From Theocolax elegans (Eukaryota > Arthropoda > Insecta > Hymenoptera > Cerocephalidae), in the NCBI GenBank assembly GCA_026168455.1, contig CM047426.1:2907501-2971500 (forward strand): a DNA stretch of 64,000 bases, given 5' to 3'. The notes beneath the pieces are model-generated. The model was not told where the DNA came from. It saw nothing but the letters and a program-made list of their open reading frames with translations, and ran no database searches. Below, one piece after another: positions 41,766 through 64,000 of this stretch (the first letter of the stretch is position 1; every line of letters starts with the position of its first letter). A program made the translations under genes and the position numbers.

Positions 41766-44060
41766 TGTTCTTCTTATTAAAATATTTTCAATTTTATAAC
41801 TTAGTATTTTATTGCTTCTTCTTTTAAATTTATGTCTGGCGGCTTGTGGCCTTCATAATGTTGTCCTCGGGATTGATACGCGGCGAATTGTCGTGCCTTT
41901 TCGAGCGAGCAACTTGGAGTTCTTAGAGTCGTTAGACGTTAGCTCAGCAAGACCGACAAAATTCTATATTAATTTAAAAACTTTTGCCTGGGCGAAAAAA
42001 ATCACATTTTTAATAATAACAGGACTTTGGTTTAAAATTATGTCCATAGTACATACTCTGATGTTAGGGGGCACTTTTCCATCCACAATCAGATTTTCCA
42101 CCTTATGTGTACTTATATAGGCTCCGTTCATTCGTTCTTACGATACCAAAATTTTAAGTTTATCATTATTTTGATTCAATAATATTGTCTTGTGTGTCTG
42201 GGGCAGGGACCGTCTGCGCCCCACTGATGAGTTCTGGCAGACGGTCCCAAGACGAAACACATAGACTTAAAATTTCTTTCTTTCTTATTAAAATATTTTC
42301 AATTTTATAACTTAGTATTTTATTTGCTTCTTCTTTTAAATTTATGTCTGGCGGCTTGTGGCCTTCATAATGTTGTCCTCGGGATTGATACGCGGCGAAT
42401 TGTCGTGCCTTTTCGAGCGAGCAACTTGGAGTTCTTAGAGTCGTTAGACGTTAGCACAGCAAGACCGACAAAATTCTATATTAATTTAAAAACTTTTGCC
42501 TGGGCGAAAAAAATCACATTTTTAATAATAACAGGACTTTGGTTTAAAATTATGTCCATAGTACATACTCTGATGTTAGGGGGCACTTTTCCATCCACAA
42601 TCAGATTTTCCACCTTATGTGTACTTATATAGGCTCCGTTCATTCGTTCTTACGATACCAAAATTTTAAGTTTATCATTATTTTGATTCAATAATATTGT
42701 CTTGTGTGTCTGGGGCAGGGACCGTCTGCGCCCCACTGATGAGTTCTGCTAGACGGTCCCAAGACGAAACACATAGACTTAAAATTTCTTTCTTTCTTAT
42801 TAAAATATTTTCAATTTTATAACTTAGTATTTTATTGCTTCTTCTTTTAAATTTATGTCTGGCGGCTTGTGGCCTTCATAATGTTGTCCTCGGGATTGAT
42901 ACGCGGCGAATTGTCGTGCCTTTTCGAGCGAGCAACTTGGAGTTCTTAGAGTCGTTAGACGTTAGCTCAGCAAGACCGACAAAATTCTATATTAATTTAA
43001 AAACTTTTGCCTGGGCGAAAAAAATTACATTTTAATAATAACAGGACTTTGGTTTAAAATTATGTCCATAGTACATACTCTGATGTTAGGGGGCACTTTT
43101 CCATCCACAATCAGATTTTCCACCTTATGTGTACTTATATAGGCTCCGTTCATTCGTTCTTACGATACCAAAATTTTAAGTTTATCATTATTTTGATTCA
43201 ATAATATTGTCTTGTGTGTCTGGGGCAGGGACCGTCTGCGCCCCACTGATGAGTTCTGGCAGACGGTCCCAAGACGAAACACATAGACTTAAAATTTCTT
43301 TCTTTCTTATTAAAATATTTTCAATTTATAACTTAGTATTTTATTTGCTTCTTCTTTAAATTTATGTCTGGCGGCTTGTGGCCTTCATAATGTTGTCCTC
43401 GGGATTGATACGCGGCGAATTGTCGTGCCTTTTCGAGCGAGCAACTTGGAGTTCTTAGAGTCGTTAGACGTTAGCACAGCAAGACCGACAAAATTCTATA
43501 TTAATTTAAAAACTTTTGCCTGGGCGAAAAAAATCACATTTTTAATAATAACATGACTTTGGTTTAAAATTATGTCCATAGTACATACTCTGATGTTAGG
43601 GGGGCACTTTTCCATCCACAATCAGATTTTCCACCTTATGTGTACTTATATAGGCTCCGTTCATTCGTTCTTACGATACCAAAATTTTAAGTTTATCATT
43701 ATTTTGATTCAATAATATTGTCTTGTGTGTCTGGGGCAGGGACCGTCTGCGCCCCACTGATGAGTTCTGCTAGACGGTCCCAAGACGAAACACATAGACT
43801 TAAAATTTCTTTCTTTCTTATTAAAATATTTTCAATTTTATAACTTAGTATTTTATTTGCTTCTTCTTTTAAATTTATGTCTGGCGGCTCGTGGCCTTCA
43901 TAATGTTGTCCTCGGGATTGATACGCGGCGAATTGTCGTGCCTTTTCGAGCGAGCAACTTGGAGTTATTAGAGTCGTTAGACGTTAGCTCAGCAAGACCG
44001 ACAAAATTCTATATTAATTTAAAAACTTTTGCCTGGGCGAAAAAAATTACATTTTTAATA
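41766..44060 (+). repeat. right arm of inverted satellite array, five copies of about 511 bp
   Basis: The same unit runs in the opposite orientation, with equivalent points near 41812, 42324, 42835, 43347 and 43857. The switch is at about 41766 and is not a perfect hairpin tip: the left arm stops just after the GC hairpin, while the right arm starts at TTCTTATTAAAATATT, so roughly 150 bases of spacer differ. Copies 2 and 4 share GCACAGC and CTGCTAGACGG variants, while copies 1, 3 and mostly 5 share GCTCAGC, which indicates dimeric amplification. Confidence 0.9.
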
Positions 44061-44073
44061 ATAAAGTAAGTAT
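44061..44073. repeat. right 13-bp direct repeat flanking the inverted array
   Basis: Exact match in the same orientation to 38403-38415, directly after the last partial satellite unit. Confidence 0.65.
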
Positions 44074-44427
44074 ATTCTTAAAATTGAAAAAACTACTCAA
44101 TATTAACAAATTTTGTATTTGCATTTTTTGAATATTAAATATTTACTTACTTATGAGCGTACTTATTAACAAAAATATTTAATTAATATATATTTTTTAT
44201 TTATCTACAAATTTTTTTTCTTGAATTTTTTGTAATGAAATACTGTTACGTGTGGATACACGTCACGGATGTATTAAAATAAGTAAATTGTTGTTCGTCG
44301 AAAATGCTGACCATTCAGGTCATTAAACGGTGCCACGCGACTTCGCAACTTGAGCATCGGTGCAACCTGAAGCGCAAGGATCAGCTAAGCGCCCCTCCGA
44401 TTACACTTGTATATAGGTCACTAAACT

Positions 44428-44437
44428 TATATAAAAG
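44428..44437 (+). promoter_or_regulatory. LTR core promoter TATA box
   Basis: TATATAAAAG on the plus strand would direct transcription to the right, through the antisense L segment and then Env. It recurs at the same offset (184 bases) in each complete LTR: 48830, 53232 and 57634. Confidence 0.6.
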
Positions 44438-44445
44438 AAGACGGT

Positions 44446-44451
44446 AATAAA
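44446..44451 (+). terminator. LTR poly(A) signal
   Basis: AATAAA lies 9 bases after the TATA box. It is close to the expected start site, so in the downstream LTR it could end transcripts that began in the upstream LTR, which would set a short R region. Confidence 0.45.
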
Positions 44452-44714
44452 CAAACGGGAGCGAAAAAGTGAAAAGGAAAGAGAGAAGACAGAAGTGACA
44501 TTTTACGAGTGGATTCAACGCGAAGACACGGAGACACGATATCGCCAGGATCGTTCTCCCTACAGCCTTAACGACAAAACGCAAGCCAACCAAAGCACTA
44601 AAACCTGGAGAACAACAGAACAACAGAACAACAACTCATCCACCTCTTTACACTTGTACTCGCTGAGTTTTAGATTCAACGAGCAGCGGTAACCACGAAA
44701 AAACGATACAGACG

Positions 44715-47333
44715 TTACCGTTCAAACGTAACATTTTTGGTGCTAGGTGTGGGGTGTTCGATTTCGGAGAGGAATAGGTAAAAACCAATCCAGTAGACTA
44801 ATTTGTCATCATATCCTCTAACGGTATGTGACAAATAAGTCGATAGTGGAATTCCTCCTACTTCAGCTGGATAACATAGTATGGTCAATAAATTGTCTTC
44901 AGATGATATATTTCTCAAATAATCTTTTCTAATTATAAAATTTGCATGACTAAACTGATTGATTATAAATCCAATATTAGGTGTAAAATCCCCTTTTGCT
45001 ATAGCCTCAGATATAGTATTTATAGTGATATGGCTGGAAGCAATAGTTGATAGGCCATCATTTATATCAGGGATCATACGGTAGGATTTCTTTAATACTG
45101 TCCTTATAGCCTCACCCTCAAAGTAGCGTACTTTTCCGTATTCGAAAAGTCTACTTGAGTACCAGGTTTCTTCTTTCTTTAGTACCAAACCTACGCTATC
45201 AAAATTATCAGTTAGTGTGTGAAGAAAACCTGTTCTTATTTCTTGAGATAATAATTGTTGTTCTTCATTCAGATGCATTACAATCACTTGATTATCTCCC
45301 TGACATATTAGGTCTATTTTTATATTATGCATTTCAGCTGTTAACTTTATAACTGTGATCGTTATCCACGTCCAGAGTTTCTGTCTCATCCCTTCCATTC
45401 CTCCAGCATGATTTCTAATCAAATATTCTCCCTCAATGGGTTCATTATTAATGGACTCAGGGGGGTGGAGTCGGCTGTTCGTGAATATATACGCCATGTG
45501 AAACCATAAGTGGTTATCACGATATAGACTTCTTAGGCCGAATAGCTGGTCTAAGATCTCTCCGAAAGGAGCAACTAGAGCATGGCGAAACATGATATTC
45601 CAGCTGGATAAGTCTAAATTCAGGATATTTTGAGTTTTTGGTGAGTTTTTTGTAGTTTCACACACTCTTGTCAGTAATGCTAACTCACCATCCGTCATGG
45701 TCTGTTCTGGCACATATTTGAAAATCTTATCGGCTATATTCTTTTCCATGGAAACTTGAATTAAACGTTGGTTAAAAGTTTGCTTGACAAAACCACGCCC
45801 TTCTAATTTTATCTCCTGTTCTTTACGACATATTGAGCAGCATAAGTCCTCCCTTTCGAATTCACCTAGATCCCTAGCTTCTACTAATTTCCGAACAATA
45901 TCCCTCTCAGACTTTAAATACTGGCTAATTATTCTACGCTCGATTGGTTTATTCGAGTTGGGATGCCTAGGTTTTCTTGTACCATACAGATAATGAAATG
46001 CACATGTATCATACTCTCTGCTCCATTCGTTAAGGGGAACTGCGGAAGCTGAATCTTTGAGTAACTCAGCAACGTTTGGGGAATAGTCATAATCAAGTGT
46101 CTTGTCAAAAATTATCGAATTCCAAAGATCATAATTTGAATAAATACTTTCAGGTATAGATTTGTTAGATTTAAGTAAGTCAAATAAAATATCTGGGCAG
46201 TATTTAAACTTAGGAAGTGTGTTTTCCTTCTTTTTATAATTAATTATTATATCCCTTTTAGCTATCCCTAAGCAATTCTTTACAGTCGTCTCATTAATAT
46301 TTATTAGTATTTTTCCTTTTTCTCTGATCTTGTTAAAACTACCATCTATAGGAAGAACCGGATGTCCCATTGTTTTAGTAAGACCGGTCAATTCTAATGA
46401 AATTTTTATCTCATCGCGACTAGTGTTCGAGGGCAGTAAAAAATCTAAGCAATCCTCAGTCATATTATAGGGTTGTAGTACTAGCTTGATCTCATTTAGA
46501 GTAGAATTATACAGATCAGAAAAGCCTAAATCTTCTTCTTCATCTTTGATAATATAACCTATTACATAGGGTTCCCATAAACTCATTAATTTATAAATAT
46601 TGTTATGTAATATTGACCTCAATTCTTCCCATTTGTCTAACGTATTTACAATTCTATTTAGGAAAGAATCTCGGTAAACCTCGAAGAAATCTGTTAAAAG
46701 TCCTACTAACAATACAGTTGTCCGAGCTTGAATGTTGTCTAACTGACAGATTAATAAAGAGGTAGGTCCTATTGATCCACCATGTTCTATACAACTAAAA
46801 AAACATAAATCAGGATCGAGTAAAATATCTTCAAACGGTTTTAAGTCTCCATAAGGGACTCTGTCTTTACATATTATATCTTTTATCTTTTCGACAGTCT
46901 GTCCTCTTCTAAAGTGATAGTGTAATACATGGGAATGTTCGCTCAAGTAAGTAAATAATTCTGCTGCTTTATCATCAATTTCGTCCTTTAGGTTTCTTTG
47001 TTCAGTACAAATATTGCTTGTGTAATATACCTGTTGTAACGCCCAAGAGCGAACAGATGTCTTTATTATGTACATAAGATCCTTATGGCTTTTCTCCTTT
47101 CTAATCTTAAGTTTATCAGAAACTCTATCTACCCATTTGTTTAAGCATTTGTAGGGATCTGGACATTGTTTATATACATGACTATCAATTTTGTGTTCTT
47201 TTACCAATTCGACTAAATGTTTATGCCTTTTACATAGTGGTTTAAAACCAGAGTCCAATAACATTTCAGCCTCATCATTTACTATAGGAGAGGATCTAGT
47301 AGATTTCACTCGATTCGACCTCATTAGAGCCAT
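44715..47333 (-). CDS. endogenous viral L polymerase fragment, copy 1 (unbroken 872 codons)
   Basis: Part of the large protein of a negative-strand RNA virus (Mononegavirales/Jingchuvirales type), the enzyme that copies and transcribes the viral genome. Full L proteins are about 2000 residues; this keeps the N-terminal region and the RNA-dependent RNA polymerase domain, and lacks capping, methyltransferase and C-terminal domains. Motif A has Asp574 (DLSSWN), motif B GGMEGMRQK at 644-652 and catalytic motif C QGDNQ at 678-682, all intact. A GRGFVKQTF block precedes motif A. The frame begins with an ATG and ends in LTR-derived codons: the last dozen or so residues come from the primer-site and LTR sequence, not the virus. 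Its strand is opposite to the LTR promoter, so LTR transcripts are antisense to it. One private substitution (Asp to His in a LDYHF segment) separates it from the other copies. Virus family not resolved. Confidence 0.88.
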   Translation of the reverse strand: MALMRSNRVKSTRSSPIVNDEAEMLLDSGFKPLCKRHKHLVELVKEHKIDSHVYKQCPDPYKCLNKWVDRVSDKLKIRKEKSHKDLMYIIKTSVRSWALQQVYYTSNICTEQRNLKDEIDDKAAELFTYLSEHSHVLHYHFRRGQTVEKIKDIICKDRVPYGDLKPFEDILLDPDLCFFSCIEHGGSIGPTSLLICQLDNIQARTTVLLVGLLTDFFEVYRDSFLNRIVNTLDKWEELRSILHNNIYKLMSLWEPYVIGYIIKDEEEDLGFSDLYNSTLNEIKLVLQPYNMTEDCLDFLLPSNTSRDEIKISLELTGLTKTMGHPVLPIDGSFNKIREKGKILININETTVKNCLGIAKRDIIINYKKKENTLPKFKYCPDILFDLLKSNKSIPESIYSNYDLWNSIIFDKTLDYDYSPNVAELLKDSASAVPLNEWSREYDTCAFHYLYGTRKPRHPNSNKPIERRIISQYLKSERDIVRKLVEARDLGEFEREDLCCSICRKEQEIKLEGRGFVKQTFNQRLIQVSMEKNIADKIFKYVPEQTMTDGELALLTRVCETTKNSPKTQNILNLDLSSWNIMFRHALVAPFGEILDQLFGLRSLYRDNHLWFHMAYIFTNSRLHPPESINNEPIEGEYLIRNHAGGMEGMRQKLWTWITITVIKLTAEMHNIKIDLICQGDNQVIVMHLNEEQQLLSQEIRTGFLHTLTDNFDSVGLVLKKEETWYSSRLFEYGKVRYFEGEAIRTVLKKSYRMIPDINDGLSTIASSHITINTISEAIAKGDFTPNIGFIINQFSHANFIIRKDYLRNISSEDNLLTILCYPAEVGGIPLSTYLSHTVRGYDDKLVYWIGFYLFLSEIEHPTPSTKNVTFER
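44738..44755 (+). other. candidate tRNA primer-binding site
   Basis: TGGTGCTAGGTGTGGGGT begins 4 bases after the LTR end, at the standard place and with the TGG that pairs with the CCA tail of a tRNA. I could not match it to a particular tRNA. The antisense L frame runs through it. Confidence 0.45.
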
Positions 47334-48284
47334 ACCACTACCTATAGTTCAAAATTCATTAAACATTTCTGATACTTTTGCATATATATGGCCAAATTAT
47401 AAATATTTTGCCTTAAATAATCTACTAAACACATATATTCCTATAGACATTGAAAATATAGAAAAATGTAAAAAACTACATGAGTTATACATTTGTAAAA
47501 ACATGGAACCACCAATGAGTATAAATACATATAGCCCTTGTGAAATAAAATTAAGCAATAATACTATAACTCACGATTTATCAGATTGTAATATAAAATT
47601 AATTAAATTTCAAAACACACATTGGACACGAACAAATACTCCAAACGTATGGATATATTCAACAAATAAAACGAAGAAATAATAGGGAAATGTAAACGAT
47701 CAGCGGATCGTAAATTAACATTAAACGGAATAGGATTATTAAGATTACCAAAAAATTGTATTATCGAAACGCCCACCACAAAATTAATAGCGAATCGTGA
47801 AGTTACAACTAATTTTACTAGTTACTTATTTAACGATAATATGTTGAATATTACAAATATATTAAATAGTACCAAACTAAATATTTCGAAGGTAATAGAA
47901 ACTCAGAATTATAACCTAAAAGAACATTCGACTATATCATTATCCACTGGAAAGGATTTACACGAAATAATTGAAAAAGCAAAAAATATAGCAAATTACC
48001 ATAAAATTACTAATCAGGTGTCTCAATTACAAGATACGTTTATATACTCGGGTTCAAGCATAATATTAATATTAATAATTATAATTATAATATGGAGGAT
48101 TCTCGTGAGACGGGGGGCCCCTTTTACTAATCAAAATAGACTGATTTTAGGTCCAATAGCATCATCATCACCAACAACCAGCCAGCCTTTCAATTCTGAA
48201 GAATTATTACAAGTAATCAAATTCTACAATTCTGATTATCGTCGAAAACTAGAGGAAAATCGAACAAAAGAAACCGGATTATAA
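47334..48284 (+). pseudogene. Env (F-like) C-terminal fragment, copy 1, frameshifted
   Basis: Same Env fragment as in copy 2, broken by a one-base deletion in an A-run near 47670, after which the frame resumes at 47841 (147 codons to the stop at 48284). One private change (Ile to Asn near 47556) is seen. As in the other copies there is no Env signal peptide or fusion peptide, and no ATG of its own at the 5' junction. Confidence 0.8.
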
Positions 48285-48645
48285 CCTTTAGCTATATCAC
48301 CACATTCAACATATATATTGTTAAAATTATTACTGCTTTTATGAATCAAAACGAAACTGTCATTATTTTACTACTAATTATATTGCGATTGTATTTTAGA
48401 ATTATTTAATTACCGTTTACATTGTAAAAAAAAAAACAAAATTATAATATTGCTACGAAACCATTTATTGTAAAAAAAAATTACTACTCAAAATGTATGA
48501 AAATATGTATGTAATTATAAGAAAAATATTGTATATGCGCAAAAATGTATGAAAATATGTATGTAATCGTAAGAAAAATATTGTATATGCGCAAAAATGT
48601 ATTAAAATATACGTCGAGGGCGACGTTTTGCAAAAACCCCGGACG
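48285..48645 (+). repeat. 3' segment of the chimeric unit with a 52-bp tandem repeat
   Basis: AT-rich sequence between Env and the next LTR. From 48489 to 48612 a 52-base unit (ATGTATGAAAATATGTATGT and onward, ending GTATATGCGC) occurs 2.3 times. The bases just before the LTR (AAAAACCCCGGACG) do not form a clear polypurine tract. Equivalent segments follow Env in units 2 to 4 (52686-53047, 57089-57449 and 61489-61849). Confidence 0.75.
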
Positions 48646-49135
48646 TGTTACGTGTGGATACACGTCACGGATGTATTAAAATAAGTAAATTGTTGTTCGT
48701 CGAAAATGCTGACCATTCAGGTCATTAAACGGTGCCACGCGACTTCGCAACTTGAGCATCGGTGCAACCTGAAGCGCAAGGATCAGCTAAGCGCCCCTCC
48801 GATTACACTTGTATATAGGTCACTAAACTTATATAAAAGAAGACGGTAATAAACAAACGGGAGCGAAAAAGTGAAAAGGAAAGAGAGAAGACAGAAGTGA
48901 CATTTTACGAGTGGATTCAACGCGAAGACACGGAGACACGATATCGCCAGGATCGTTCTCCCTACAGCCTTAACGACAAAACGCAAGCCAACCAAAGCAC
49001 TAAAACCTGGAGAACAACAGAACAACAGAACAACAACTCATCCACCTCTTTACACTTGTACTCGCTGAGTTTTAGATTCAACGAGCAGCGGTAACCACGA
49101 AAAAACGATACAGACGTTACCGTTCAAACGTAACA
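48646..49135 (+). repeat. LTR 2 (complete)
   Basis: Same as LTR 1 by eye along its whole length, with TG..CA ends. Shared between unit 1 and unit 2. Confidence 0.88.
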
Positions 49136-51733
49136 TTTTTGGTGCTAGGTGTGGGGTGTTCGATTTCGGAGAGGAATAGGTAAAAACCAATCCAGTAGAC
49201 TAATTTGTCATCATATCCTCTAACGGTATGTGACAAATAAGTCGATAGTGGAATTCCTCCTACTTCAGCTGGATAACATAGTATGGTCAATAAATTGTCT
49301 TCAGATGATATATTTCTCAAATAATCTTTTCTAATTATAAAATTTGCATGACTAAACTGATTGATTATAAATCCAATATTAGGTGTAAATCCCCTTTTGC
49401 TATAGCCTCAGATATAGTATTTATAGTGATATGGCAGGAAGCAATAGTTGATAGGCCATCATTTATATCAGGGATCATACGGTAGGATTTCTTTAATACT
49501 GTCCTTATAGCCTCACCCTCAAAGTAGCGTACTTTTCCGTATTCGAAAAGTCTACTTGAGTACCAGGTTTCTTCTTTCTTTAGTACCAAACCTACGCTAT
49601 CAAAATTATCAGTTAGTGTGTGAAGAAAACCTGTTCTTATTTCTTGAGATAATAATTGTTGTTCTTCATTCAGATGCATTACAATCACTTGATTATCTCC
49701 CTGACATATTAGGTCTATTTTTATATTATGCATTTCAGCTGTTAACTTTATAACTGTGATCGTTATCCACGTCCAGAGTTTCTGTCTCATCCCTTCCATT
49801 CCTCCAGCATGATTTCTAATCAAATATTCTCCCTCAATGGGTTCATTATTAATGGACTCAGGGGGGTGGAGTCGGCTGTTCGTGAATATATACGCCATGT
49901 GAAACCATAAGTGGTTATCACGATATAGACTTCTTAGGCCGAATAGCTGGTCTAAGATCTCTCCGAAAGGAGCAACTAGAGCATGGCGAAACATGATATT
50001 CCAGCTGGATAAGTCTAAATTCAGGATATTTGAGTTTTTGGTGAGTTTTTTGTAGTTTCACACACTCTTGTCAGTAATGCTAACTCACCATCCGTCATGG
50101 TCTGTTCTGGCACATATTTGAAAATCTTATCGGCTATATTCTTTTCCATGGAAACTTGAATTAAACGTTGGTTAAAAGTTTGCTTGACAAAACCACGCCC
50201 TTCTAATTTTATCTCCTGTTCTTTACGACATATTGAGCAGCATAAGTCCTCCCTTTCGAATTCACCTAGATCCCTAGCTTCTACTAATTTCCGAACAATA
50301 TCCCTCTCAGACTTTAAATACTGGCTAATTATTCTACGCTCGATTGGTTTATTCGAGTTGGGATGCCTAGGTTTTCTTGTACCATACAGATAATGAAATG
50401 CACATGTATCATACTCTCTGCTCCATTCGTTAAGGGGAACTGCGGAAGCTGAATCTTTGAGTAACTCAGCAACGTTTGGGGAATAGTCATAATCAAGTGT
50501 CTTGTCAAAAATTATCGAATTCCAAAGATCATAATTTGAATAAATACTTTCAGGTATAGATTTGTTAGATTTAAGTAAGTCAAATAAAATATCTGGGCAG
50601 TATTTAAACTTAGGAAGTGTGTTTTCCTTCTTTTTATAATTAATTATTATATCCCTTTTAGCTATCCCTAAGCAATTCTTTACAGTCGTCTCATTAATAT
50701 TTATTAGTATTTTTTCCTTTTTCTCTGATCTTGTTAAAACTACCATCTATAGGAAGAACCGGATGTCCCATTGTTTTAGTAAGACCGGTCAATTCTAATG
50801 AAATTTTTATCTCATCGCGACTAGTGTTCGAGGGCAGTAAAAAATCTAAGCAATCCTCAGTCATATTATAGGGTTGTAGTACTAGCTTGATCTCATTTAG
50901 AGTAGAATTATACAGATCAGAAAAGCCTAAATCTTCTTCTTCATCTTTGATAATATAACCTATTACATAGGGTTCCCATAAACTCATTAATTTATAAATA
51001 TTGTATGTAATATTGACCTCAATTCTTCCCATTTGTCTAACGTATTTACAATTCTATTTAGGAAAGAATCTCGGTAAACCTCGAAGAAATCTGTTAAAAG
51101 TCCTACTAACAATACAGTTGTCCGAGCTTGAATGTTGTCTAACTGACAGATTAATAAAGAGGTAGGTCCTATTGATCCACCATGTTCTATACAACTAAAA
51201 AAACATAAATCAGGATCGAGTAAAATATCTTCAAACGGTTTTAAGTCTCCATAAGGGACTCTGTCTTTACATATTATATCTTTTATCTTTTCGACAGTCT
51301 GTCCTCTTCTAAAGTGATAGTCTAATACATGGGAATGTTCGCTCAAGTAAGTAAATAATTCTGCTGCTTTATCATCAATTTCGTCCTTTAGGTTTCTTTG
51401 TTCAGTACAAATATTGCTTGTGTAATATACCTGTTGTAACGCCCAAGAGCGAACAGATGTCTTTATTATGTACATAAGATCCTTATGGCTTTTCTCCTTT
51501 CTAATCTTAAGTTTATCAGAAACTCTATCTACCCATTTGTTTAAGCATTTGTAGGGATCTGGACATTGTTTATATACATGACTATCAATTTTGTGTTCTT
51601 TTACCAATTCGACTAAATGTTTATGCCTTTTACATAGTGGTTTAAAACCAGAGTCCAATAACATTTCAGCCTCATCATTTACTATAGGAGAGGATCTAGT
51701 AGATTTCACTCGATTCGACCTCATTAGAGCCAT
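49117..51733 (-). pseudogene. endogenous viral L polymerase fragment, copy 2, frameshifted
   Basis: Same content as copy 1 but split into several frames by four single-base changes, mostly in homopolymers: near 49387, 50030, 50711 and 51004. Motif C (GDNQ) is intact in the piece 49365-49994. One private substitution (Ser to Cys in the SSHITI segment). The single-base homopolymer nature of the breaks makes assembly error as likely as true decay. Confidence 0.88.
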
Positions 51734-52685
51734 ACCACTACCTATAGTTCAAAATTCATTAAACATTTCTGATACTTTTGCATATATATGGCCAAATTAT
51801 AAATATTTTGCCTTAAATAATCTACTAAACACATATATTCCTATAGACATTGAAAATATAGAAAAATGTAAAAAACTACATGAGTTATACATTTGTAAAA
51901 ACATGGAACCACCAATGAGTATAAATACATATAGCCCTTGTGAAATAAAATTAAGCATTAATACTATAACTCACGATTTATCAGATTGTAATATAAAATT
52001 AATTAAATTTCAAAACACACATTGGACACGAACAAATACTCCAAACGTATGGATATATTCAACAAATAAAAACGAAGAAATAATAGGGAAATGTAAACGA
52101 TCAGCGGATCGTAAATTAACATTAAACGGAATAGGATTATTAAGATTACCAAAAAATTGTATTATCGAAACGCCCACCACAAAATTAATAGCGAATCGTG
52201 AAGTTACAACTAATTTTACTAGTTACTTATTTAACGATAATATGTTGAATATTACAAATATATTAAATAGTACCAAACTAAATATTTCGAAGGTAATAGA
52301 AACTCAGAATTATAACCTAAAAGAACATTCGACTATATCATTATCCACTGGAAAGGATTTACACGAAATAATTGAAAAAGCAAAAAATATAGCAAATTAC
52401 CATAAAATTACTAATCAGGTGTCTCAATTACAAGATACGTTTATATACTCGGGTTCAAGCATAATATTAATATTAATAATTATAATTATAATATGGAGGA
52501 TTCTCGTGAGACGGGGGGCCCCTTTTACTAATCAAAATAGACTGATTTTAGGTCCAATAGCATCATCATCACCAACAACCAGCCAGCCTTTCAATTCTGA
52601 AGAATTATTACAAGTAATCAAATTCTACAATTCTGATTATCGTCGAAAACTAGAGGAAAATCGAACAAAAGAAACCGGATTATAA
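51734..52685 (+). CDS. Env (F-like) C-terminal fragment, copy 2, frame open
   Basis: Sense-strand fragment of a baculovirus-F/errantivirus-type envelope glycoprotein. It shows the Cys pattern of the family (YICKN..., SPCEI, SDCNI, GKCKR, KNCII) with the W..T.TPN.W block, several N-glycosylation sequons, a G.G.L.LP.NC segment, a heptad-like stretch, a transmembrane segment (about residues 290-306 of the 364-codon open frame, a poly-Ile/Leu run) and a cytoplasmic tail starting RRG. The open frame reads upstream into antisense L sequence (from 51591), but that part is not Env. There is no ATG before about residue 109 of the frame, so translation start is unclear. Env N-terminal half and fusion peptide are missing. 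In errantiviruses Env sits after gag-pol; here the L segment takes that place. Confidence 0.8.
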
Positions 52686-53047
52686 CCTTTAGCTATATCA
52701 CCACATTCAACATATATATTGTTAAAATTATTACTGCTTTTATGAATCAAAACGAAACTGTCATTATTTTACTACTAATTATATTGCGATTGTATTTTAG
52801 AATTATTTAATTACCGTTTACATTGTAAAAAAAAAAAACAAAATTATAATATTGCTACGAAACCATTTATTGTAAAAAAAAATTACTACTCAAAATGTAT
52901 GAAAATATGTATGTAATTATAAGAAAAATATTGTATATGCGCAAAAATGTATGAAAATATGTATGTAATCGTAAGAAAAATATTGTATATGCGCAAAAAT
53001 GTATTAAAATATACGTCGAGGGCGACGTTTTGCAAAAACCCCGGACG

Positions 53048-53537
53048 TGTTACGTGTGGATACACGTCACGGATGTATTAAAATAAGTAAATTGTTGTTC
53101 GTCGAAAATGCTGACCATTCAGGTCATTAAACGGTGCCACGCGACTTCGCAACTTGAGCATCGGTGCAACCTGAAGCGCAAGGATCAGCTAAGCGCCCCT
53201 CCGATTACACTTGTATATAGGTCACTAAACTTATATAAAAGAAGACGGTAATAAACAAACGGGAGCGAAAAAGTGAAAAGGAAAGAGAGAAGACAGAAGT
53301 GACATTTTACGAGTGGATTCAACGCGAAGACACGGAGACACGATATCGCCAGGATCGTTCTCCCTACAGCCTTAACGACAAAACGCAAGCCAACCAAAGC
53401 ACTAAAACCTGGAGAACAACAGAACAACAGAACAACAACTCATCCACCTCTTTACACTTGTACTCGCTGAGTTTTAGATTCAACGAGCAGCGGTAACCAC
53501 GAAAAAACGATACAGACGTTACCGTTCAAACGTAACA
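53048..53537 (+). repeat. LTR 3 (complete)
   Basis: Same as LTR 1 by eye, with TG..CA ends; between units 2 and 3. Confidence 0.88.
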
Positions 53538-56136
53538 TTTTTGGTGCTAGGTGTGGGGTGTTCGATTTCGGAGAGGAATAGGTAAAAACCAATCCAGTAG
53601 ACTAATTTGTCATCATATCCTCTAACGGTATGTGACAAATAAGTCGATAGTGGAATTCCTCCTACTTCAGCTGGATAACATAGTATGGTCAATAAATTGT
53701 CTTCAGATGATATATTTCTCAAATAATCTTTTCTAATTATAAAATTTGCATGACTAAACTGATTGATTATAAATCCAATATTAGGTGTAAAATCCCCTTT
53801 TGCTATAGCCTCAGATATAGTATTTATAGTGCTATGGCTGGAAGCAATAGTTGATAGGCCATCATTTATATCAGGGATCATACGGTAGGATTTCTTTAAT
53901 ACTGTCCTTATAGCCTCACCCTCAAAGTAGCGTACTTTTCCGTATTCGAAAAGTCTACTTGAGTACCAGGTTTCTTCTTTCTTTAGTACCAAACCTACGC
54001 TATCAAAATTATCAGTTAGTGTGTGAAGAAAACCTGTTCTTATTTCTTGAGATAATAATTGTTGTTCTTCATTCAGATGCATTACAATCACTTGATTATC
54101 TCCCTGACATATTAGGTCTATTTTTATATTATGCATTTCAGCTGTTAACTTTATAACTGTGATCGTTATCCACGTCCAGAGTTTCTGTCTCATCCCTTCC
54201 ATTCCTCCAGCATGATTTCTAATCAAATATTCTCCCTCAATGGGTTCATTATTAATGGACTCAGGGGGGTGGAGTCGGCTGTTCGTGAATATATACGCCA
54301 TGTGAAACCATAAGTGGTTATCACGATATAGACTTCTTAGGCCGAATAGCTGGTCTAAGATCTCTCCGAAAGGAGCAACTAGAGCATGGCGAAACATGAT
54401 ATTCCAGCTGGATAAGTCTAAATTCAGGATATTTGAGTTTTTGGTGAGTTTTTTGTAGTTTCACACACTCTTGTCAGTAATGCTAACTCACCATCCGTCA
54501 TGGTCTGTTCTGGCACATATTTGAAAATCTTATCGGCTATATTCTTTTCCATGGAAACTTGAATTAAACGTTGGTTAAAAGTTTGCTTGACAAAACCACG
54601 CCCTTCTAATTTTATCTCCTGTTCTTTACGACATATTGAGCAGCATAAGTCCTCCCTTTCGAATTCACCTAGATCCCTAGCTTCTACTAATTTCCGAACA
54701 ATATCCCTCTCAGACTTTAAATACTGGCTAATTATTCTACGCTCGATTGGTTTATTCGAGTTGGGATGCCTAGGTTTTCTTGTACCATACAGATAATGAA
54801 ATGCACATGTATCATACTCTCTGCTCCATTCGTTAAGGGGAACTGCGGAAGCTGAATCTTTGAGTAACTCAGCAACGTTTGGGGAATAGTCATAATCAAG
54901 TGTCTTGTCAAAAATTATCGAATTCCAAAGATCATAATTTGAATAAATACTTTCAGGTATAGATTTGTTAGATTTAAATAAGTCAAATAAAATATCTGGG
55001 CAGTATTTAAACTTAGGAAGTGTGTTTTCCTTCTTTTTATAATTAATTATTATATCCCTTTTAGCTATCCCTAAGCAATTCTTTACAGTCGTCTCATTAA
55101 TATTTATTAGTATTTTTCCTTTTTCTCTGATCTTGTTAAAACTACCATCTATAGGAAGAACCGGATGTCCCATTGTTTTAGTAAGACCGGTCAATTCTAA
55201 TGAAATTTTTATCTCATCGCGACTAGTGTTCGAGGGCAGTAAAAAATCTAAGCAATCCTCAGTCATATTATAGGGTTGTAGTACTAGCTTGATCTCATTT
55301 AGAGTAGAATTATACAGATCAGAAAAGCCTAAATCTTCTTCTTCATCTTTGATAATATAACCTATTACATAGGGTTCCCATAAACTCATTAATTTATAAA
55401 TATTGTTATGTAATATTGACCTCAATTCTTCCCATTTGTCTAACGTATTTACAATTCTATTTAGGAAAGAATCTCGGTAAACCTCGAAGAAATCTGTTAA
55501 AAGTCCTACTAACAATACAGTTGTCCGAGCTTGAATGTTGTCTAACTGACAGATTAATAAAGAGGTAGGTCCTATTGATCCACCATGTTCTATACAACTA
55601 AAAAAACATAAATCAGGATCGAGTAAAATATCTTCAAACGGTTTTAAGTCTCCATAAGGGACTCTGTCTTTACATATTATATCTTTTATCTTTTCGACAG
55701 TCTGTCCTCTTCTAAAGTGATAGTCTAATACATGGGAATGTTCGCTCAAGTAAGTAAATAATTCTGCTGCTTTATCATCAATTTCGTCCTTTAGGTTTCT
55801 TTGTTCAGTACAAATATTGCTTGTGTAATATACCTGTTGTAACGCCCAAGAGCGAACAGATGTCTTTATTATGTACATAAGATCCTTATGGCTTTTCTCC
55901 TTTCTAATCTTAAGTTTATCAGAAACTCTATCTACCCATTTGTTTAAGCATTTGTAGGGATCTGGACATTGTTTATATACATGACTATCAATTTTGTGTT
56001 CTTTTACCAATTCGACTAAATGTTTATGCCTTTTACATAGTGGTTTAAAACCAGAGTCCAATAACATTTCAGCCTCATCATTTACTATAGGAGAGGATCT
56101 AGTAGATTTCACTCGATTCGACCTCATTAGAGCCAT
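53519..56136 (-). pseudogene. endogenous viral L polymerase fragment, copy 3, one frameshift
   Basis: Two long frames, 54424-56136 (570 codons, N-terminal part) and 53519-54397 (292 codons, with motifs B and C), separated by a single missing T in a short run near 54430, the same place where copy 2 is broken. Private substitutions: Leu to Phe in the DLLKSNK segment and Ile to Ser in SSHITI. Otherwise as copy 1. Confidence 0.88.
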
Positions 56137-57088
56137 ACCACTACCTATAGTTCAAAATTCATTAAACATTTCTGATACTTTTGCATATATATGGCCAAAT
56201 TATAAATATTTTGCCTTAAATAATCTACTAAACACATATATTCCTATAGACATTGAAAATATAGAAAAATGTAAAAAACTACATGAGTTATACATTTGTA
56301 AAAACATGGAACCACCAATGAGTATAAATACATATAGCCCTTGTGAAATAAAATTAAGCATTAATACTATAACTCACGATTTATCAGATTGTAATATAAA
56401 ATTAATTAAATTTCAAAACACACATTGGACACGAACAAATACTCCAAACGTATGGATATATTCAACAAATAAAAACGAAGAAATAATAGGGAAATGTAAA
56501 CGATCAGCGGATCGTAAATTAACATTAAACGGAATAGGATTATTAAGATTACCAAAAAATTGTATTATCGAAACGCCCACCACAAAATTAATAGCGAATC
56601 GTGAAGTTACAACTAATTTTACTAGTTACTTATTTAACGATAATATGTTGAATATTACAAATATATTAAATAGTACCAAACTAAATATTTCGAAGGTAAT
56701 AGAAACTCAGAATTATAACCTAAAAGAACATTCGACTATATCATTATCCACTGGAAAGGATTTACACGAAATAATTGAAAAAGCAAAAAATATAGCAAAT
56801 TACCATAAAATTACTAATCAGGTGTCTCAATTACAAGATACGTTTATATACTCGGGTTCAAGCATAATATTAATATTAATAATTATAATTATAATATGGA
56901 GGATTCTCGTGAGACGGGGGGCCCCTTTTACTAATCAAAATAGACTGATTTTAGGTCCAATAGCATCATCATCACCAACAACCAGCCAGCCTTTCAATTC
57001 TGAAGAATTATTACAAGTAATCAAATTCTACAATTCTGATTATCGTCGAAAACTAGAGGAAAATCGAACAAAAGAAACCGGATTATAA
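56137..57088 (+). CDS. Env (F-like) C-terminal fragment, copy 3, frame open
   Basis: Identical in translation to copy 2 as far as I can see, with the same transmembrane run and tail. The open frame extends upstream into antisense L sequence (from 55994) and lacks an early ATG. Confidence 0.8.
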
Positions 57089-57449
57089 CCTTTAGCTATA
57101 TCACCACATTCAACATATATATTGTTAAAATTATTACTGCTTTTATGAATCAAAACGAAACTGTCATTATTTTACTACTAATTATATTGCGATTGTATTT
57201 TAGAATTATTTAATTACCGTTACATTGTAAAAAAAAAAAACAAAATTATAATATTGCTACGAAACCATTTATTGTAAAAAAAAATTACTACTCAAAATGT
57301 ATGAAAATATGTATGTAATTATAAGAAAAATATTGTATATGCGCAAAAATGTATGAAAATATGTATGTAATCGTAAGAAAAATATTGTATATGCGCAAAA
57401 ATGTATTAAAATATACGTCGAGGGCGACGTTTTGCAAAAACCCCGGACG

Positions 57450-57939
57450 TGTTACGTGTGGATACACGTCACGGATGTATTAAAATAAGTAAATTGTTGT
57501 TCGTCGAAAATGCTGACCATTCAGGTCATTAAACGGTGCCACGCGACTTCGCAACTTGAGCATCGGTGCAACCTGAAGCGCAAGGATCAGCTAAGCGCCC
57601 CTCCGATTACACTTGTATATAGGTCACTAAACTTATATAAAAGAAGACGGTAATAAACAAACGGGAGCGAAAAAGTGAAAAGGAAAGAGAGAAGACAGAA
57701 GTGACATTTTACGAGTGGATTCAACGCGAAGACACGGAGACACGATATCGCCAGGATCGTTCTCCCTACAGCCTTAACGACAAAACGCAAGCCAACCAAA
57801 GCACTAAAACCTGGAGAACAACAGAACAACAGAACAACAACTCATCCACCTCTTTACACTTGTACTCGCTGAGTTTTAGATTCAACGAGCAGCGGTAACC
57901 ACGAAAAAACGATACAGACGTTACCGTTCAAACGTAACA
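57450..57939 (+). repeat. LTR 4 (complete)
   Basis: Same as LTR 1 by eye, with TG..CA ends; between units 3 and 4. Confidence 0.88.
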
Positions 57940-60539
57940 TTTTTGGTGCTAGGTGTGGGGTGTTCGATTTCGGAGAGGAATAGGTAAAAACCAATCCAGT
58001 AGACTAATTTGTCATCATATCCTCTAACGGTATGTGACAAATAAGTCGATAGTGGAATTCCTCCTACTTCAGCTGGATAACATAGTATGGTCAATAAATT
58101 GTCTTCAGATGATATATTTCTCAAATAATCTTTTCTAATTATAAAATTTGCATGACTAAACTGATTGATTATAAATCCAATATTAGGTGTAAAATCCCCT
58201 TTTGCTATAGCCTCAGATATAGTATTTATAGTGATATGGCTGGAAGCAATAGTTGATAGGCCATCATTTATATCAGGGATCATACGGTAGGATTTCTTTA
58301 ATACTGTCCTTATAGCCTCACCCTCAAAGTAGCGTACTTTTCCGTATTTGAAAAGTCTACTTGAGTACCAGGTTTCTTCTTTCTTTAGTACCAAACCTAC
58401 GCTATCAAAATTATCAGTTAGTGTGTGAAGAAAACCTGTTCTTATTTCTTGAGATAATAATTGTTGTTCTTTATTCAGATGCATTACAATCACTTGATTA
58501 TCTCCCTGACATATTAGGTCTATTTTTATATTATGCATTTCAGCTGTTAACTTTATAACTGTGATCGTTATCCACGTCCAGAGTTTCTGTCTCATCCCTT
58601 CCATTCCTCCAGCATGATTTCTAATCAAATATTCTCCCTCAATGGGTTCATTATTAATGGACTCAGGGGGTGGAGTCGGCTGTTCGTGAATATATACGCC
58701 ATGTGAAACCATAAGTGGTTATCACGATATAGACTTCCTAGGCCGAATAGCTGGTCTAAGATCTCTCCGAAAGGAGCAACTAGAGCATGGCGAAACATGA
58801 TATTCCAGCTGGATAAGTCTAAATTCAGGATAATTTGAGTTTTTGGTGAGTTTTTTGTAGTTTCACACACTCTTGTCAGTAATGCTAACTCACCATCCGT
58901 CATGGTCTGTTCTGGCACATATTTGAAAATCTTATCGGCTATATTCTTTTCCATGGAAACTTGAATTAAACGTTGGTTAAAAGTTTGCTTGACAAAACCA
59001 CGCCCTTCTAATTTTATCTCCTGTTCTTTACGACATATTGAGCAGCATAAGTCCTCCCTTTCGAATTCACCTAGATCCCTAGCTTCTACTAATTTCCGAA
59101 CAATATCCCTCTCAGACTTTAAATACTGGCTAATTATTCTACGCTCGATTGGTTTATTCGAGTTGGGATGCCTAGGTTTTCTTGTACCATACAGATAATG
59201 AAATGCACATGTATCATACTCTCTGCTCCATTCGTTAAGGGGAACTGCGGAAGCTGAATCTTTGAGTAACTCAGCAACGTTTGGGGAATAGTCATAATCA
59301 AGTGACTTGTCAAAAATTATCGAATTCCAAAGATCATAATTTGAATAAATACTTTCAGGTATAGATTTGTTAGATTTAAGTAAGTCAAATAAAATATCTG
59401 GGCAGTATTTAAACCTAGGAAGTGTGTTTTTCTTCTTTTTATAATTAATTATTATATCCCTTTTAGCTATCCCTAAGCAATTCTTTACAGTCGTCTCATT
59501 AATATTTATTAGTATTTTTCCTTTTTCTCTGATCTTGTTAAAACTACCATCTATAGGAAGAACCGGATGTCCCATTGTTTTAGTAAGACCGGTCAATTCT
59601 AATGAAATTTTTATCTCATCGCGACTAGTGTTCGAGGGCAGTAAAAAATCTAAGCAACCCTCAGTCATATTATAGGGTTGTAGTACTAGCTTGATCTCAT
59701 TTAGAGTAGAATTATACAGATCAGAAAAGCCTAAATCTTCTTCTTCATCTTTGATAATATAACCTATTACATAGGGTTCCCATAAACTCATTAATTTATA
59801 AATATTGTTATGTAATATTGACCTCAATTCTTCCCATTTGTCTAACGTATTTACAATTCTATTTAGGAAAGAATCTCGGTAAACCTCGAAGAAATCTGTT
59901 AAAAGTCCTACTAACAATACAGTTGTCCGAGCTTGAATGTTGTCTAACTGACAGATTAATAAAGAGGTAGGTCCTATTGATCCACCATGTTCTATACAAC
60001 TAAAAAAAACATAAATCAGGATCGAGTAAAATATCTTCAAACGGTTTTAAGTCTCCATAAGGGACTCTGTCTTTACATATTATATCTTTTATCTTTTCGA
60101 CAGTCTGTCCTCTTCTAAAGTGATAGTCTAATACATGGGAATGTTCGCTCAAGTAAGTAAATAATTCTGCTGCTTTATCATCAATTTCGTCCTTTAGGTT
60201 TCTTTGTTCAGTACAAATATTGCTTGTGTAATATACCTGTTGTAACGCCCAAGAGCGAACAGATGTCTTTATTATGTACATAAGATCCTTATGGCTTTTC
60301 TCCTTTCTAATCTTAAGTTTATCAGAAACTCTATCTACCCATTTGTTTAAGCATTTGTAGGGATCTGGACATTGTTTATATACATGACTATCAATTTTGT
60401 GTTCTTTTACCAATTCGACTAAATGTTTATGCCTTTTACATAGTGGTTTAAAACCAGAGTCCAATAACATTTCAGCCTCATCATTTACTATAGGAGAGGA
60501 TCTAGTAGATTTCACTCGATTCGACCTCATTAGAGCCAT
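57921..60539 (-). pseudogene. endogenous viral L polymerase fragment, copy 4, frameshifted and most diverged
   Basis: Breaks: a missing G in a G-run near 58669 and an added A in an A-run near 60003. At least seven private amino-acid changes (for example Glu to Lys three times, Arg to Gly near motif A, Asp to Gly), more than any other copy. Motifs A, B and C remain. It is the copy next to the truncated LTR at the array edge. Confidence 0.88.
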
Positions 60540-61488
60540 ACCACTACCTATAGTTCAAAATTCATTAAACATTTCTGATACTTTTGCATATATATGGCCA
60601 AATTATAAATATTTTGCCTTAAATAATCTACTAAACACATATATTCCTATAGACATTGAAAATATAGAAAAATGTAAAAAACTACATGAGTTATACATTT
60701 GTAAAAACATGGAACCACCAATGAGTATAAATACATATAGCCCTTGTGAAATAAATTAAGCATTAATACTATAACTCACGATTTATCAGATTGTAATATA
60801 AAATTAATTAAATTTCAAAACACACATTGGACACGAACAAATACTCCAAACGTATGGATATATTCAACAAATAAAAACGAAGAAATAATAGGGAAATGTA
60901 AACGATCAGCGGATCGTAAATTAACATTAAACGGAATAGGATTATTAAGATTACCAAAAAATTGTATTATCGAAACGCCCACCACAAAATTAATAGCGAA
61001 TCGTGAAGTTACAACTAATTTTACTAGTTACTTATTTAACGATAATATGTTGAATATTACAAATATATTAAATAGTACCAAACTAAATATTTCGAAGGTA
61101 ATAGAAACTCAGAATTATAACCTAAAAGAACATTCGACTATCATTATCCACTGGAAAGGATTTACACGAAATAATTGAAAAAGCAAAAAATATAGCAAAT
61201 TACCATAAAATTACTAATCAGGTGTCTCAATTACAAGATACGTTTATATACTCGGGTTCAAGCATAATATTAATATTAATAATTATAATTATAATATGGA
61301 GGATTCTCGTGAGACGGGGGGCCCCTTTTACTAATCAAAATAGACTGATTTTAGGTCCAATAGCATCATCATCACCAACAACCAGCCAGCCTTTCAATTC
61401 TGAAGAATTATTACAAGTAATCAAATTCTACAATTCTGATTATCGTCGAAAACTAGAGGAAAATCGAACAAAAGAAACCGGATTATAA
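60540..61488 (+). pseudogene. Env (F-like) C-terminal fragment, copy 4, broken
   Basis: A one-base deletion in an A-run near 60752 ends the first frame at 60759, and a two-base deletion near 61140 (TATATC to TATC) breaks it again. The last 88 codons with the transmembrane run and tail are open to 61488. Confidence 0.8.
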
Positions 61489-61849
61489 CCTTTAGCTATA
61501 TCACCACATTCAACATATATATTGTTAAAATTATTACTGCTTTTATGAATCAAAACGAAACTGTCATTATTTTACTACTAATTATATTGCGATTGTATTT
61601 TAGAATTATTTAATTACCGTTTACATTGTAAAAAAAAAAACAAAATTATAATATTGCTACGAAACCATTTATTGTAAAAAAAAATTACTACTCAAAATGT
61701 ATGAAAATATGTATGTAATTATAAGAAAAATATTGTATATGCGCAAAAATGTATGAAAATATGTATGTAATCGTAAGAAAAATATTGTATATGCGCAAAA
61801 ATGTATTAAAATATACGTCGAGGGCGACGTTTTGCAAAAACCCCGGACG

Positions 61850-61966
61850 TGTTACGTGTGGATACACGTCACGGATGTATTAAAATAAGTAAATTGTTGT
61901 TCGTCGAAAATGCTGACCATTCAGGTCATTAAACGGTGCCACGCGACTTCGCAACTTGAGCATCGT
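61850..61966 (+). repeat. LTR 5 (truncated, first 117 bp)
   Basis: Matches LTR positions 1-117, then sequence changes abruptly after GAGCATCG. The TATA box and everything 3' are missing. This marks the right breakpoint of the array. Confidence 0.85.
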
Positions 61967-64000
61967 AGTCCAGTGAAAATAGGTCTGAAATCGACTTGTC
62001 ACAGAAATGGCTGAATTTTTGATATTTGGTAAATCGAGGTCGGAGAAAACGATTCTGAAATTTGCAGCTTCCTAGGTCCAGGGATTCTATGCGAAATAAG
62101 CGTTTAAAAGTTATTTTAAATTATATCTCAATAACCGTTTGGTCTACAGCAAAACGACTAGTGCCAAATGAAAGAACGTAAAATTTAGCATCGGAAACGA
62201 TTTTTTATTCGATTTTTGTAAGTGTAAAATTTTGAGATAATAAAAGAAAAAGGCATAAATTCATCCGAATAAGGAGTAGAGGGGTAGCGCAGACGACATG
62301 GCCGCCGCTCCCCCCACCCGTGGCTCTAAGCGCAATAAGAGCGAGGCAACTTTGATTGTTTCGTGTTACCTCACGGCAACGTCGAGAATTTTTTTGGGCG
62401 CTTTAAATACTGCAAGTGTAAACATAGCGGCAGGATTTGGATAAATGGGCATTTTTATATTTTATGCAGTGTCAACTTATTAGAAAGATGTTTTCCTCTA
62501 TACAAAATCAATTATTTTTTCTTATATGTTTCTCGATTATAGTGTATTACTATAGTGTGGAAAAATTTGAATAATTTCTAATATTTAATTATTTAAAACA
62601 AATTTTTAATAACACCCATTACTAATCCCAATTATTAATATTGTTGCCTGTTAAAGGTATGTGATACCCAAATTTTAGAGATCTATATAACTTAGAAAAT
62701 CCCAAAAATTTTAAAACCTAATTTATATAAGAATAAGTCTGAAAAAAATCACAGATACTGCACAAAACAAATAGAATAGCGTGATAGAGAGATTTTTGAG
62801 AAATAATTAATTATCAATTAATTATACGTAGATAACCATTTTTGGTCGGTAATATATAGCTTATTCACGGCTGCCTAAAAATCTCGCTGGTTTATCAATA
62901 AAAAAATTTGAAAAAATTCACAGAATATCTTCAAAGGAAACACAACATTGTTACAGAAATTTTTTTTCGATAAATTGAAGTCAATCGAATCTTCTTAAAG
63001 AAAAATAAATCATTTTTCTGTTTGTATTGAGTTCACAACCCCTTAATGTGCAATGCAAAGTTTTTATTTATTGAAATAATTTTGCAGTGGTTTCGGTCTC
63101 TAAAATAACCATTTTCTTCATTTTTTAAGGTAATGGGAATCAATTTTTAAAAAACGGTTTACACAAAATGTATATACTTTTTAATATATGACTATTTCTA
63201 TCGAAATTATTCCCTGGAAAGAAAATGTAAAAACCAACAATAAAATTGTTTTACATACTAATAACATTGTGTACATTTCCCAAAAAACCTTAACTGAATA
63301 ATTGATGGAACCCCCCTTTACGATAATAGATGTCGTATTTATACAGGTTTTAATCGCGTCATATATGGGTTTTATAACTAATTAATTAGTTTTTCAAAAT
63401 ATTAGAATATCGTTTACCGAATAATATTCAGTATTTGTGTATATAAAGAAAAACGTATGTAACATAATATTTTATTTTAGTAATATTTCAAAATGCGTAC
63501 ATAAGTCGTTCACCTCCGTCGCTGATTAGCCCTGGCAGCATAAATAGAGCGACGTTAAATATTAAAAAAAAAAAAAATATGATAAAAGCAAGTATAAGTG
63601 ACCGATTTTATTAAGGATCACTTTGCACTAACATTTACTCTATACAGAAAATGTATTGAATAAATAATTAGGAATAGTATAAATATATATTAAAAGTGCA
63701 GAGTAGAAAGATTTAGTATGAGAGACAAAGATTTGTAATAGGCAGAGGATGGAGAAAAATAAGTTGTAAATAATAATGTACAGCAGTAAAATTTATAAAA
63801 AGCCAGAATTTAAATCATATAATGTTAAATATTGTCGGTATAATGAGTGTATATTGGCAAAGTTACACTTTAGATGAAATAAGGCATAAAATTACATTTT
63901 TGAAAAGCTTAAATATCTGTAATTATACTTTTAAATGAAAAATTATACTTCTTAAAGTGTAAAATAAATTATGATGCTTTTGAAAGACTTAATATGTAAT
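61967..64000. other. unassigned sequence right of the viral array
   Basis: No frame of useful length or recognisable domain on either strand, and no Nuf2 N-terminal exon that I can identify. The first 490 bases are less AT-rich than the rest and include a GC-rich patch (about 62282-62400, with GACATGGCCGCCGCTCCCCC). That block may belong to another repeat family that replaced the end of LTR 5. From 62450 on it is plain AT-rich DNA with one A-run near 63567. Confidence 0.5.

Follow-up and report, generated by a model that had tools for sequence, protein, structure and literature searches.

A tandem array of LTR elements in the wasp Theocolax elegans that carry an antisense mononegavirus polymerase fragment, with a probable route of capture during reverse transcription

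A 64,000-nt stretch of the genome of the hymenopteran Theocolax elegans (C2:2907501-2971500, on contig CM047426.1 of assembly GCA_026168455.1; hereafter the window, contigs and loci being given by our handles, C or L with a number) contains at 44244-61965 four head-to-tail units, 4402, 4402, 4402 and 4400 bp long as assembled, in which a long terminal repeat (LTR) retroelement holds a fragment of a mononegavirus L polymerase where gag-pol would be. The order within each unit is LTR, TTTT spacer, 18-nt primer site, antisense L, the 3' half of an Env gene in sense, a tail and the next LTR, with single LTRs common to neighbouring units. Based on the two joints of the chimera and on relatives of its parts found in the 658-Mb, 1277-contig assembly, we think it likely that an Env-bearing LTR element captured the L sequence by one RNA template switch and an aberrant second strand transfer, followed by integration and LTR-LTR exchange. 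The original prediction for this stretch had described LTR units with proper ends and a primer site, holding L in antisense and Env in sense, and had suggested a template switch onto viral genomic RNA; the four units, with a 490-bp LTR, a primer site that fits a tRNA-Leu(TAA) and profile matches for both genes, bear out this description, and the orientation of L as well as both joints fit such a switch, which we refine to a single switch plus the aberrant strand transfer.

The units are 99.6-99.8% identical to unit 1, and the 40-mers across the L/Env and LTR/L junctions each occur four times in the window. Variation between the units comprises 24 alignment columns (12 substitutions and 12 indel columns), and the LTR is free of any. 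Nine of the 12 indel columns fall in runs of at least three equal bases, a pattern like that of uncorrected long-read errors, which could mean that joints or copy number are artefacts of assembly; however, both joints are present in all four units, individual units have private substitutions, and the array lies between matching copies of a 4-bp duplication, so that we hold such an artefact to be extremely improbable. Besides L and Env, unit 1 is without any frame of at least 100 aa (shorter frames were not profiled), i.e., no gag-pol frame was found; the unit is non-autonomous, as copies that are still family members can be.

The L fragment was identified through an 877-aa frame of unit 1 (44715-47348, minus strand) that matches PF00946 (Mononeg_RNA_pol) at 1.6e-92 over profile positions 100-915 of 1068. 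This frame overruns the viral sequence on both sides: the 54 nt at its start (47348-47295) are reversed Env, and the 41 nt at its end (44755-44715) are primer site, spacer and LTR. The possibility that L begins at its own start codon beside Env was rejected, as relatives identify the first 18 codons of the frame as backwards Env. The fragment is not full-length, being cut at the primer site, where related copies continue with open frames beyond it; at its other end, the frame of a related copy on C1023 starts ~32 codons before the point at which the L of the array begins. Among solved structures, four chains of L proteins 1711-1756 aa long matched best (3e-46 to 5e-46, against 7e-36 for the one that followed), a length that we take to be bornavirus-sized, and the N part of the frame alone had no solved relative below E 0.24. 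The frame is open in unit 1 and is broken in units 2-4 by single-letter length differences. All 11 substitutions scored within it are nonsynonymous, and there is thus no sign that L was retained as a protein once the units had been duplicated, although residual sequencing error could contribute to this count.

Relatives of the L fragment are spread through the host genome. At the DNA level (26 of 26 candidates scored) there were 13 matches outside the array with 68-74% identity, on C1023, C857, C513, C1, C2 and C4, and at the protein level 44 of 54 rows fell on places other than the array, the best at 86% identity; 32 of the 44 contain stops and 12 are free of them, many being short pieces. 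Protein rows at 24-28% on C3 and C5 represent other L lineages. Several L-like stretches near to the array's L in sequence are clustered on the small contigs C857 and C513. Given these many copies, some of them free of stops, the template could have been a transcript of an endogenous L copy (e.g., a small-RNA precursor) in place of an infecting virus; but nothing scored outside the array was closer to its L than 74% by DNA or 86% by protein, matches of 100% occurring only in the array, and most outside rows are interrupted whereas the frame of unit 1 is open, and on this ground we find an endogenous template rather improbable. No further insertion of the chimera was found: in the 54 loci L005-L058, which take in every one of the 36 LTR matches beyond the four array LTRs, mostly with up to 3 kb on each side, neither blastn nor tblastn detected L.

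The LTR has an 8-bp perfect terminal inverted repeat, with TATAAA at 44430 and AATAAA at 44446, and a search of the genome gave 40 scored matches among 167 first-look candidates. Four of these are array LTRs and one is the displaced remainder of a fifth LTR; among the 36 beyond the four array LTRs, 20 span exactly positions 1-490 and six extend to 511-513. We compared the flanks of 36 rows of full-length LTRs (some places were read twice, and partial LTRs and satellite copies on C5 were excluded): 14 rows have a 4-bp duplication, as solo LTRs do (12 distinct places, two pairs having common flanks), 11 are preceded by CGGACG like 3' LTRs (9 distinct places), 9 are followed by spacer and primer site like 5' LTRs (6 distinct places), and two are unclassified, one at a locus edge and one without a duplication. 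Most rows without a noted duplication are 5' or 3' LTRs, for which the second flank was not compared. Two loci, L023 and L024, hold LTR pairs 0.8 and 2.1 kb apart with equal target duplications, and were probably duplicated together with their flanks. A cluster on C5 (L016-L022, C5:32744500-32776000) was considered as a second chimeric array and rejected, self-matches having placed its LTRs inside a short-period satellite; its six LTRs of the array's family (~93% to the array LTR) were apparently amplified along with that satellite. The primer site is likewise a family trait: two host tRNA-Leu(TAA) genes with CCA added reproduce exactly the family's two variants of this site, one of which is that of the array (the reversed control gave 0), and the idea of a chance match within L was rejected, as relatives have the same site and the host tRNA fits.

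A link to an ordinary retroelement is given by a copy on C3, which adjoins an LTR of the array's family and has RNase H, integrase and the N part of a Baculo_F-type Env in the order pol to env. Over env and tail it is 99.26% identical to the unit (4 mismatches and 6 gap columns in 1352 columns), and its LTR differs from the array LTR by 5 mismatches and 20 gap columns. From this anatomy and identity it follows that the LTR, env and tail of the array stem from a family with at least one member having pol and env, and by these alignments the chimera is close to the C3 copy. In its TG...CA LTR ends, tRNA primer site, 4-bp duplications and the order of pol and env, the family agrees with an Env-bearing LTR element of Ty3/gypsy (errantivirus-like) type. 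The original prediction, which had taken the terminal repeats to be those of a retroelement, is upheld by the 40 scored LTR matches and by this pol-bearing relative; its proposed search for an element with the same LTR and gag-pol elsewhere in the genome is answered by the C3 copy as far as the profiles of RNase H, integrase and Env go, the 5' LTR of that copy not having been found in the 8.2 kb read upstream. Between its RNase H and integrase, the C3 copy has a frame of >700 aa (L011 1856-4000) that by eye is like an OTU (ovarian tumour)-type cysteine protease and had no Pfam match at E 0.1.

The Env part, in sense, matches PF12259 (Baculo_F) at 1.4e-24 over profile positions 310-579 of 609, as judged from the frame of unit 3. 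The errantivirus type originally predicted for it holds to the level of the Baculo_F family, within which that type is not separated from other members. Env had no solved relative below E 0.04, and neither a protein search (367 aa; 2941 candidates) at E 0.001 nor a viral contig scan with Env gave any relative. Genomic copies of env, assessed through the LTR loci and the env end of the L query, allowed us to place the L/Env joint at 47295|47296, identity to the C3 copy beginning at 47296. The same break, at unit position 3053, was found in all four loci whose env reaches there (L007, L046, L048, and L051 at 85.6%), with six other loci holding only later env. In addition, the last 35 bases of the L query (47296-47330) matched at 97-100% in 12 places from base 2537 on, and the four of these that were read all lie in env; conversely, none of the L-like places outside the array extends beyond base 2535 of the query.

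The other joint lies at the end of the primer site. Among eight primer-site hits in the LTR loci, six (L005, L006, L013, L025, L026, L027) have the LTR end, spacer, primer site and a near-identical leader; of the remaining two, L028 breaks off and L031 is without the end of an array-type LTR. Unit and L026 agree base for base as far as 44755, where the 18-nt primer site ends, and from there on the unit is L; with L006, one further base past the primer site agrees by chance. The L frame itself continues into the primer site, where it encodes His-Pro, and this His-Pro is found at the 5' joint in all five scored L relatives (L061-L065) of the six flanks examined, the sixth (L060) giving no match to the search string. 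As L061, L064 and L065 are identical over the joint stretch, these relatives amount to three different sequences, one of which, L062, has GGGGTG at the His-Pro as does the array. Thus a short microhomology between the viral sequence and the primer-site end is likely, perhaps the 5 nt GGGGT. These joints also bear on an origin by DNA recombination, in which the gag-pol of a resident LTR element gave way, through insertion or recombination, to an L copy made by some other route. Nested insertion does occur here, the fifth LTR being split by a transposon; yet inspection by eye shows neither a duplication nor poly(A) where L begins and ends, the left joint falls exactly at the primer-site end with the His-Pro overlap, and L occupies the place of the relatives' leader and the rest of env, all of which makes recombination between DNA copies very improbable.

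As L is antisense to the LTR, a first-strand cDNA would have L in sense, and its template would have been a negative strand, either genomic RNA of the virus or a transcript made in antisense from an endogenous copy. The sequence of events that we infer begins with an LTR element having Env that was reverse transcribed in a mononegavirus-infected cell. Synthesis would have been primed by tRNA-Leu and have proceeded through LTR, tail and the 3' env half before reverse transcriptase left the element RNA at 47296 and moved to negative-sense viral genomic RNA, from which 2.5 kb of L would have been copied, beginning at a point ~32 codons into the gene. Plus-strand strong-stop DNA ends where a modified base of the tRNA stops the enzyme, after 18 nt of the primer site. 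Here it would have consisted of the LTR and exactly the 18-nt primer-site copy, with no normal partner on the chimeric cDNA; its 3' end, GGGGT, may have paired with a like sequence in the L cDNA and been extended, giving a complete linear DNA with two LTRs, a good primer site and no gag-pol. The element integrase would then have inserted the chimera with the 4-bp duplication ATAC, and unequal exchange between LTRs would have led to four units with single common LTRs.

The same product could result from two RNA template switches, if the enzyme had returned from the viral RNA to the element RNA at the primer site, and the short common GGGGT could serve either route. However, the break coincides exactly with the end of the 18-nt primer site, where strong-stop DNA naturally ends, and does not lie in the leader; we prefer strand transfer over a return to the element RNA because identity ends at base 18, neither earlier nor in the leader, and the two-switch route seems to us possible but unlikely. 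A locus on C1 (L028, C1:21586500-21589700), read together with L052, breaks after nt 17 of the primer site and joins sequence that lies ~1.8 kb downstream in relatives. It is possible, as a weak case, that L028 is a second joint at the primer-site end; its LTR pair is without a duplication, and between the two routes it is weak evidence either way.

Several points weigh against strand transfer from a viral template. No polypurine tract is recognisable, and there is no purine run of at least 6 within the 67 nt before the LTR; by comparison with relatives, the plus-strand primer is unrecognised for the family as a whole and this is not an array-specific loss, since nine other distinct 3' LTRs are preceded, like those of the array, by CGGACG. 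The microhomology and the polarity of the template rest on relatives and on orientation, the L relatives amount to three sequences, and two of these three have TGGATG at the His-Pro, without GGGGT. A second RNA switch back to the primer site of the element gives the same product, and the ATAC around the array is compatible both with an insertion that was amplified later and with a multimer inserted as such. In addition, the virus itself was not found, either in viral contig scans with L and with a degenerate polymerase-motif pattern or in a protein search with L (877 aa; 7996 best candidates scored), which gave no relative at E 0.001; candidates in the L and Env protein searches were limited to 0.55-1.75x the query length, so that full-length L proteins could not appear.

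The ends of the array indicate a retroelement insertion. After unit 4 the array closes, inside the window, with 116 bp of the fifth LTR (Table 1). As a correction to the original prediction, this LTR is not truncated: it is complete but split by a 5485-bp insert, its remainder lying beyond the window at C2:2974951-2975328. The insert (L009 67-5551, starting at window position 61966) has 30-nt perfect inverted repeats (as far as printed), which begin TAGTCCAGTG, and a 4-bp duplication, ATCG; locus L009 has no complete frame of at least 100 aa. The fifth LTR resumes at L009 5552 and has a normal end followed by ATAC, and the left flank of the array likewise ends in ATAC, which is also the duplication at the solo LTRs L035 and L045. 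With ATAC on both sides, either one integration founded the array or a multimer integrated.

Table 1. Features of the array and its edges, by position in the window
Feature	Position	Strand	Basis or remark
Target-site duplication ATAC, left copy	44240-44243	.	right copy just after LTR 5, outside window
LTR 1, 490 bp	44244-44733	+	TGTTACG...CGTAACA; 490 limit matches genome copies
Primer binding site, 18 nt, unit 1	44738-44755	+	15 encoded host tRNA-Leu(TAA) bases + CCA
Viral L polymerase fragment, unit 1	44756-47295	-	frame matches PF00946, 1.6e-92; limits from joints
Env 3' half (Baculo_F type), unit 1	47296-48284	+	PF12259 on unit 3 copy; C3 copy match
AT-rich tail, unit 1	48285-48645	+	2.3 copies of 52-bp repeat; CGGACG directly before LTR
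LTR 2, common to units 1 and 2	48646-49135	+	unit comparison
Primer sites, units 2-4	49140-49157, 53542-53559, 57944-57961	+	position comparison
Viral L fragment, unit 2	49158-51695	-	unit comparison
Env 3' half, unit 2	51696-52685	+	unit comparison
LTR 3	53048-53537	+	unit comparison
Viral L fragment, unit 3	53560-56098	-	unit comparison
Env 3' half, unit 3	56099-57088	+	PF12259 match
LTR 4	57450-57939	+	unit comparison
Viral L fragment, unit 4	57962-60501	-	unit comparison
Env 3' half, unit 4	60502-61488	+	unit comparison
LTR 5, first 116 bp	61850-61965	+	LTR positions 113-490 lie 5.5 kb further on, outside window
Inverted-repeat transposon, left part	61966-64000	.	inserted in LTR 5; no part of chimera

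A satellite with a period of ~511 bp directly adjoins the array on the left (~39300-44150); it forms two blocks of opposite orientation, with inverted arms 98 nt apart near 41700, and contains repeated open frames of 101-133 aa; the one such frame that was scanned (42231-42632) had no Pfam match at E 1. Elsewhere in the window, an open frame of 833 aa (16019-18520, minus strand) had no Pfam match above cut-off.

The joining of an RNA virus to an LTR element by recombination has reportedly been seen in an experimental mouse system, as a recombinant of lymphocytic choriomeningitis virus and an intracisternal A-particle (LCMV-IAP; Geuking, 2009). Cell fusing agent virus (CFAV), one of the viruses for which a related case exists, is a positive-strand flavivirus. 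The original prediction had called the structure of the units an unrecognised one, which is too strong, precedents being in print (PMC5177903, PMC6797480). Uptake of the polymerase of an RNA virus into an LTR element has been published, as far as the available text of that report goes, for eBxnv-1 of Bursaphelenchus xylophilus, a nodavirus-like RNA-dependent RNA polymerase in a degenerate Bel/Pao LTR element that is present in four strains and absent from two, and for which copy-choice during reverse transcription was proposed (PMC5177903); the chimera described here is a variant of this. Like the array, eBxnv-1 has the polymerase of an RNA virus between two LTRs with a primer site; unlike it, eBxnv-1 stems from a positive-strand virus, is single copy, and keeps part of pol, with no gag (PMC5177903). 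The array for its part has what marks this kind of insertion, non-retroviral sequence between two LTRs of one element and a target duplication. The main text on eBxnv-1 does not use the words antisense, tandem or template switch, and its available passages have no joint placed at a primer-site end (PMC5177903). Among the titles and abstract openings listed from the open-access literature, none named an antisense mononegavirus L replacing gag-pol, and none a chimera whose joint lies where the primer site ends.

Other cases, each taken from the available part of its source, have some of the features of the array. In Aag2 cells of Aedes aegypti, a fragment of CFAV NS2A is flanked by a Ty3/gypsy LTR and gag, a viral RNA fragment thus being joined in the genome to LTR-element sequence as in the array, and infected cells gave virus-LTR-element hybrid reads in circular DNA as well as antisense PIWI-interacting RNAs (piRNAs) (PMC6797480). 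In contrast to the array, which is known from its sequence, the CFAV fragment is short, gag is kept and piRNA output was demonstrated (PMC6797480). AeBunya1, also of A. aegypti, is a viral integration inside a full-length Pao-Bel element; it resembles the array in that a viral piece, bunyavirus-like by its name, is embedded in an LTR element, and differs in that we found no detail of a joint or strand transfer in the available text (PMC5497376). The Anakin elements, BEL-Pao elements with a chuvirus glycoprotein and many copies, likewise have a gene taken from a non-retroviral RNA virus; there the glycoprotein was added to the retroelement genes, whereas in the array a polymerase fragment replaces gag-pol (PMC7642597). 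The layout with single LTRs has a counterpart in Cassandra, a small plant element without gag, pol and env that forms LTR-internal-LTR-internal arrays, in which unequal crossing-over was proposed to change the number of units in existing arrays, as only a part of the explanation; unlike in our array, no viral cargo was found in the text available to us (PMC7215508).

How fossils of non-retroviral viruses enter genomes has often been argued from nearby transposons (PMC5497376, as far as its available text goes), and viral integrations in Aedes give piRNAs that in the portions available are mainly antisense to the viral frames (PMC5497376, PMC6797480). In T. elegans, a transcript from the LTR would be complementary to the mRNA of viral L and could so serve as a source of antiviral small RNAs. 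That the array is the record of a single cycle of capture, in which strong-stop DNA, halted at the modified tRNA base, and ~5 nt of microhomology gave rise to a non-autonomous two-LTR element that transcribes antisense L from its own promoter and whose array was then favoured as a source of antiviral small RNAs, is an extension that we regard as doubtful. As one genome holds both joints, the primer match, relatives and the target duplication, the steps of capture become testable base by base. The stop at the exact end of the primer site points to the second strand transfer as the route of capture, a route that predicts where joints should lie in other virus-LTR chimeras, and the joints of this chimera suggest how such virus fossils are made. 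With its antisense L under an LTR promoter, the element offers a direct test case for the idea that retroelements write antiviral memory.

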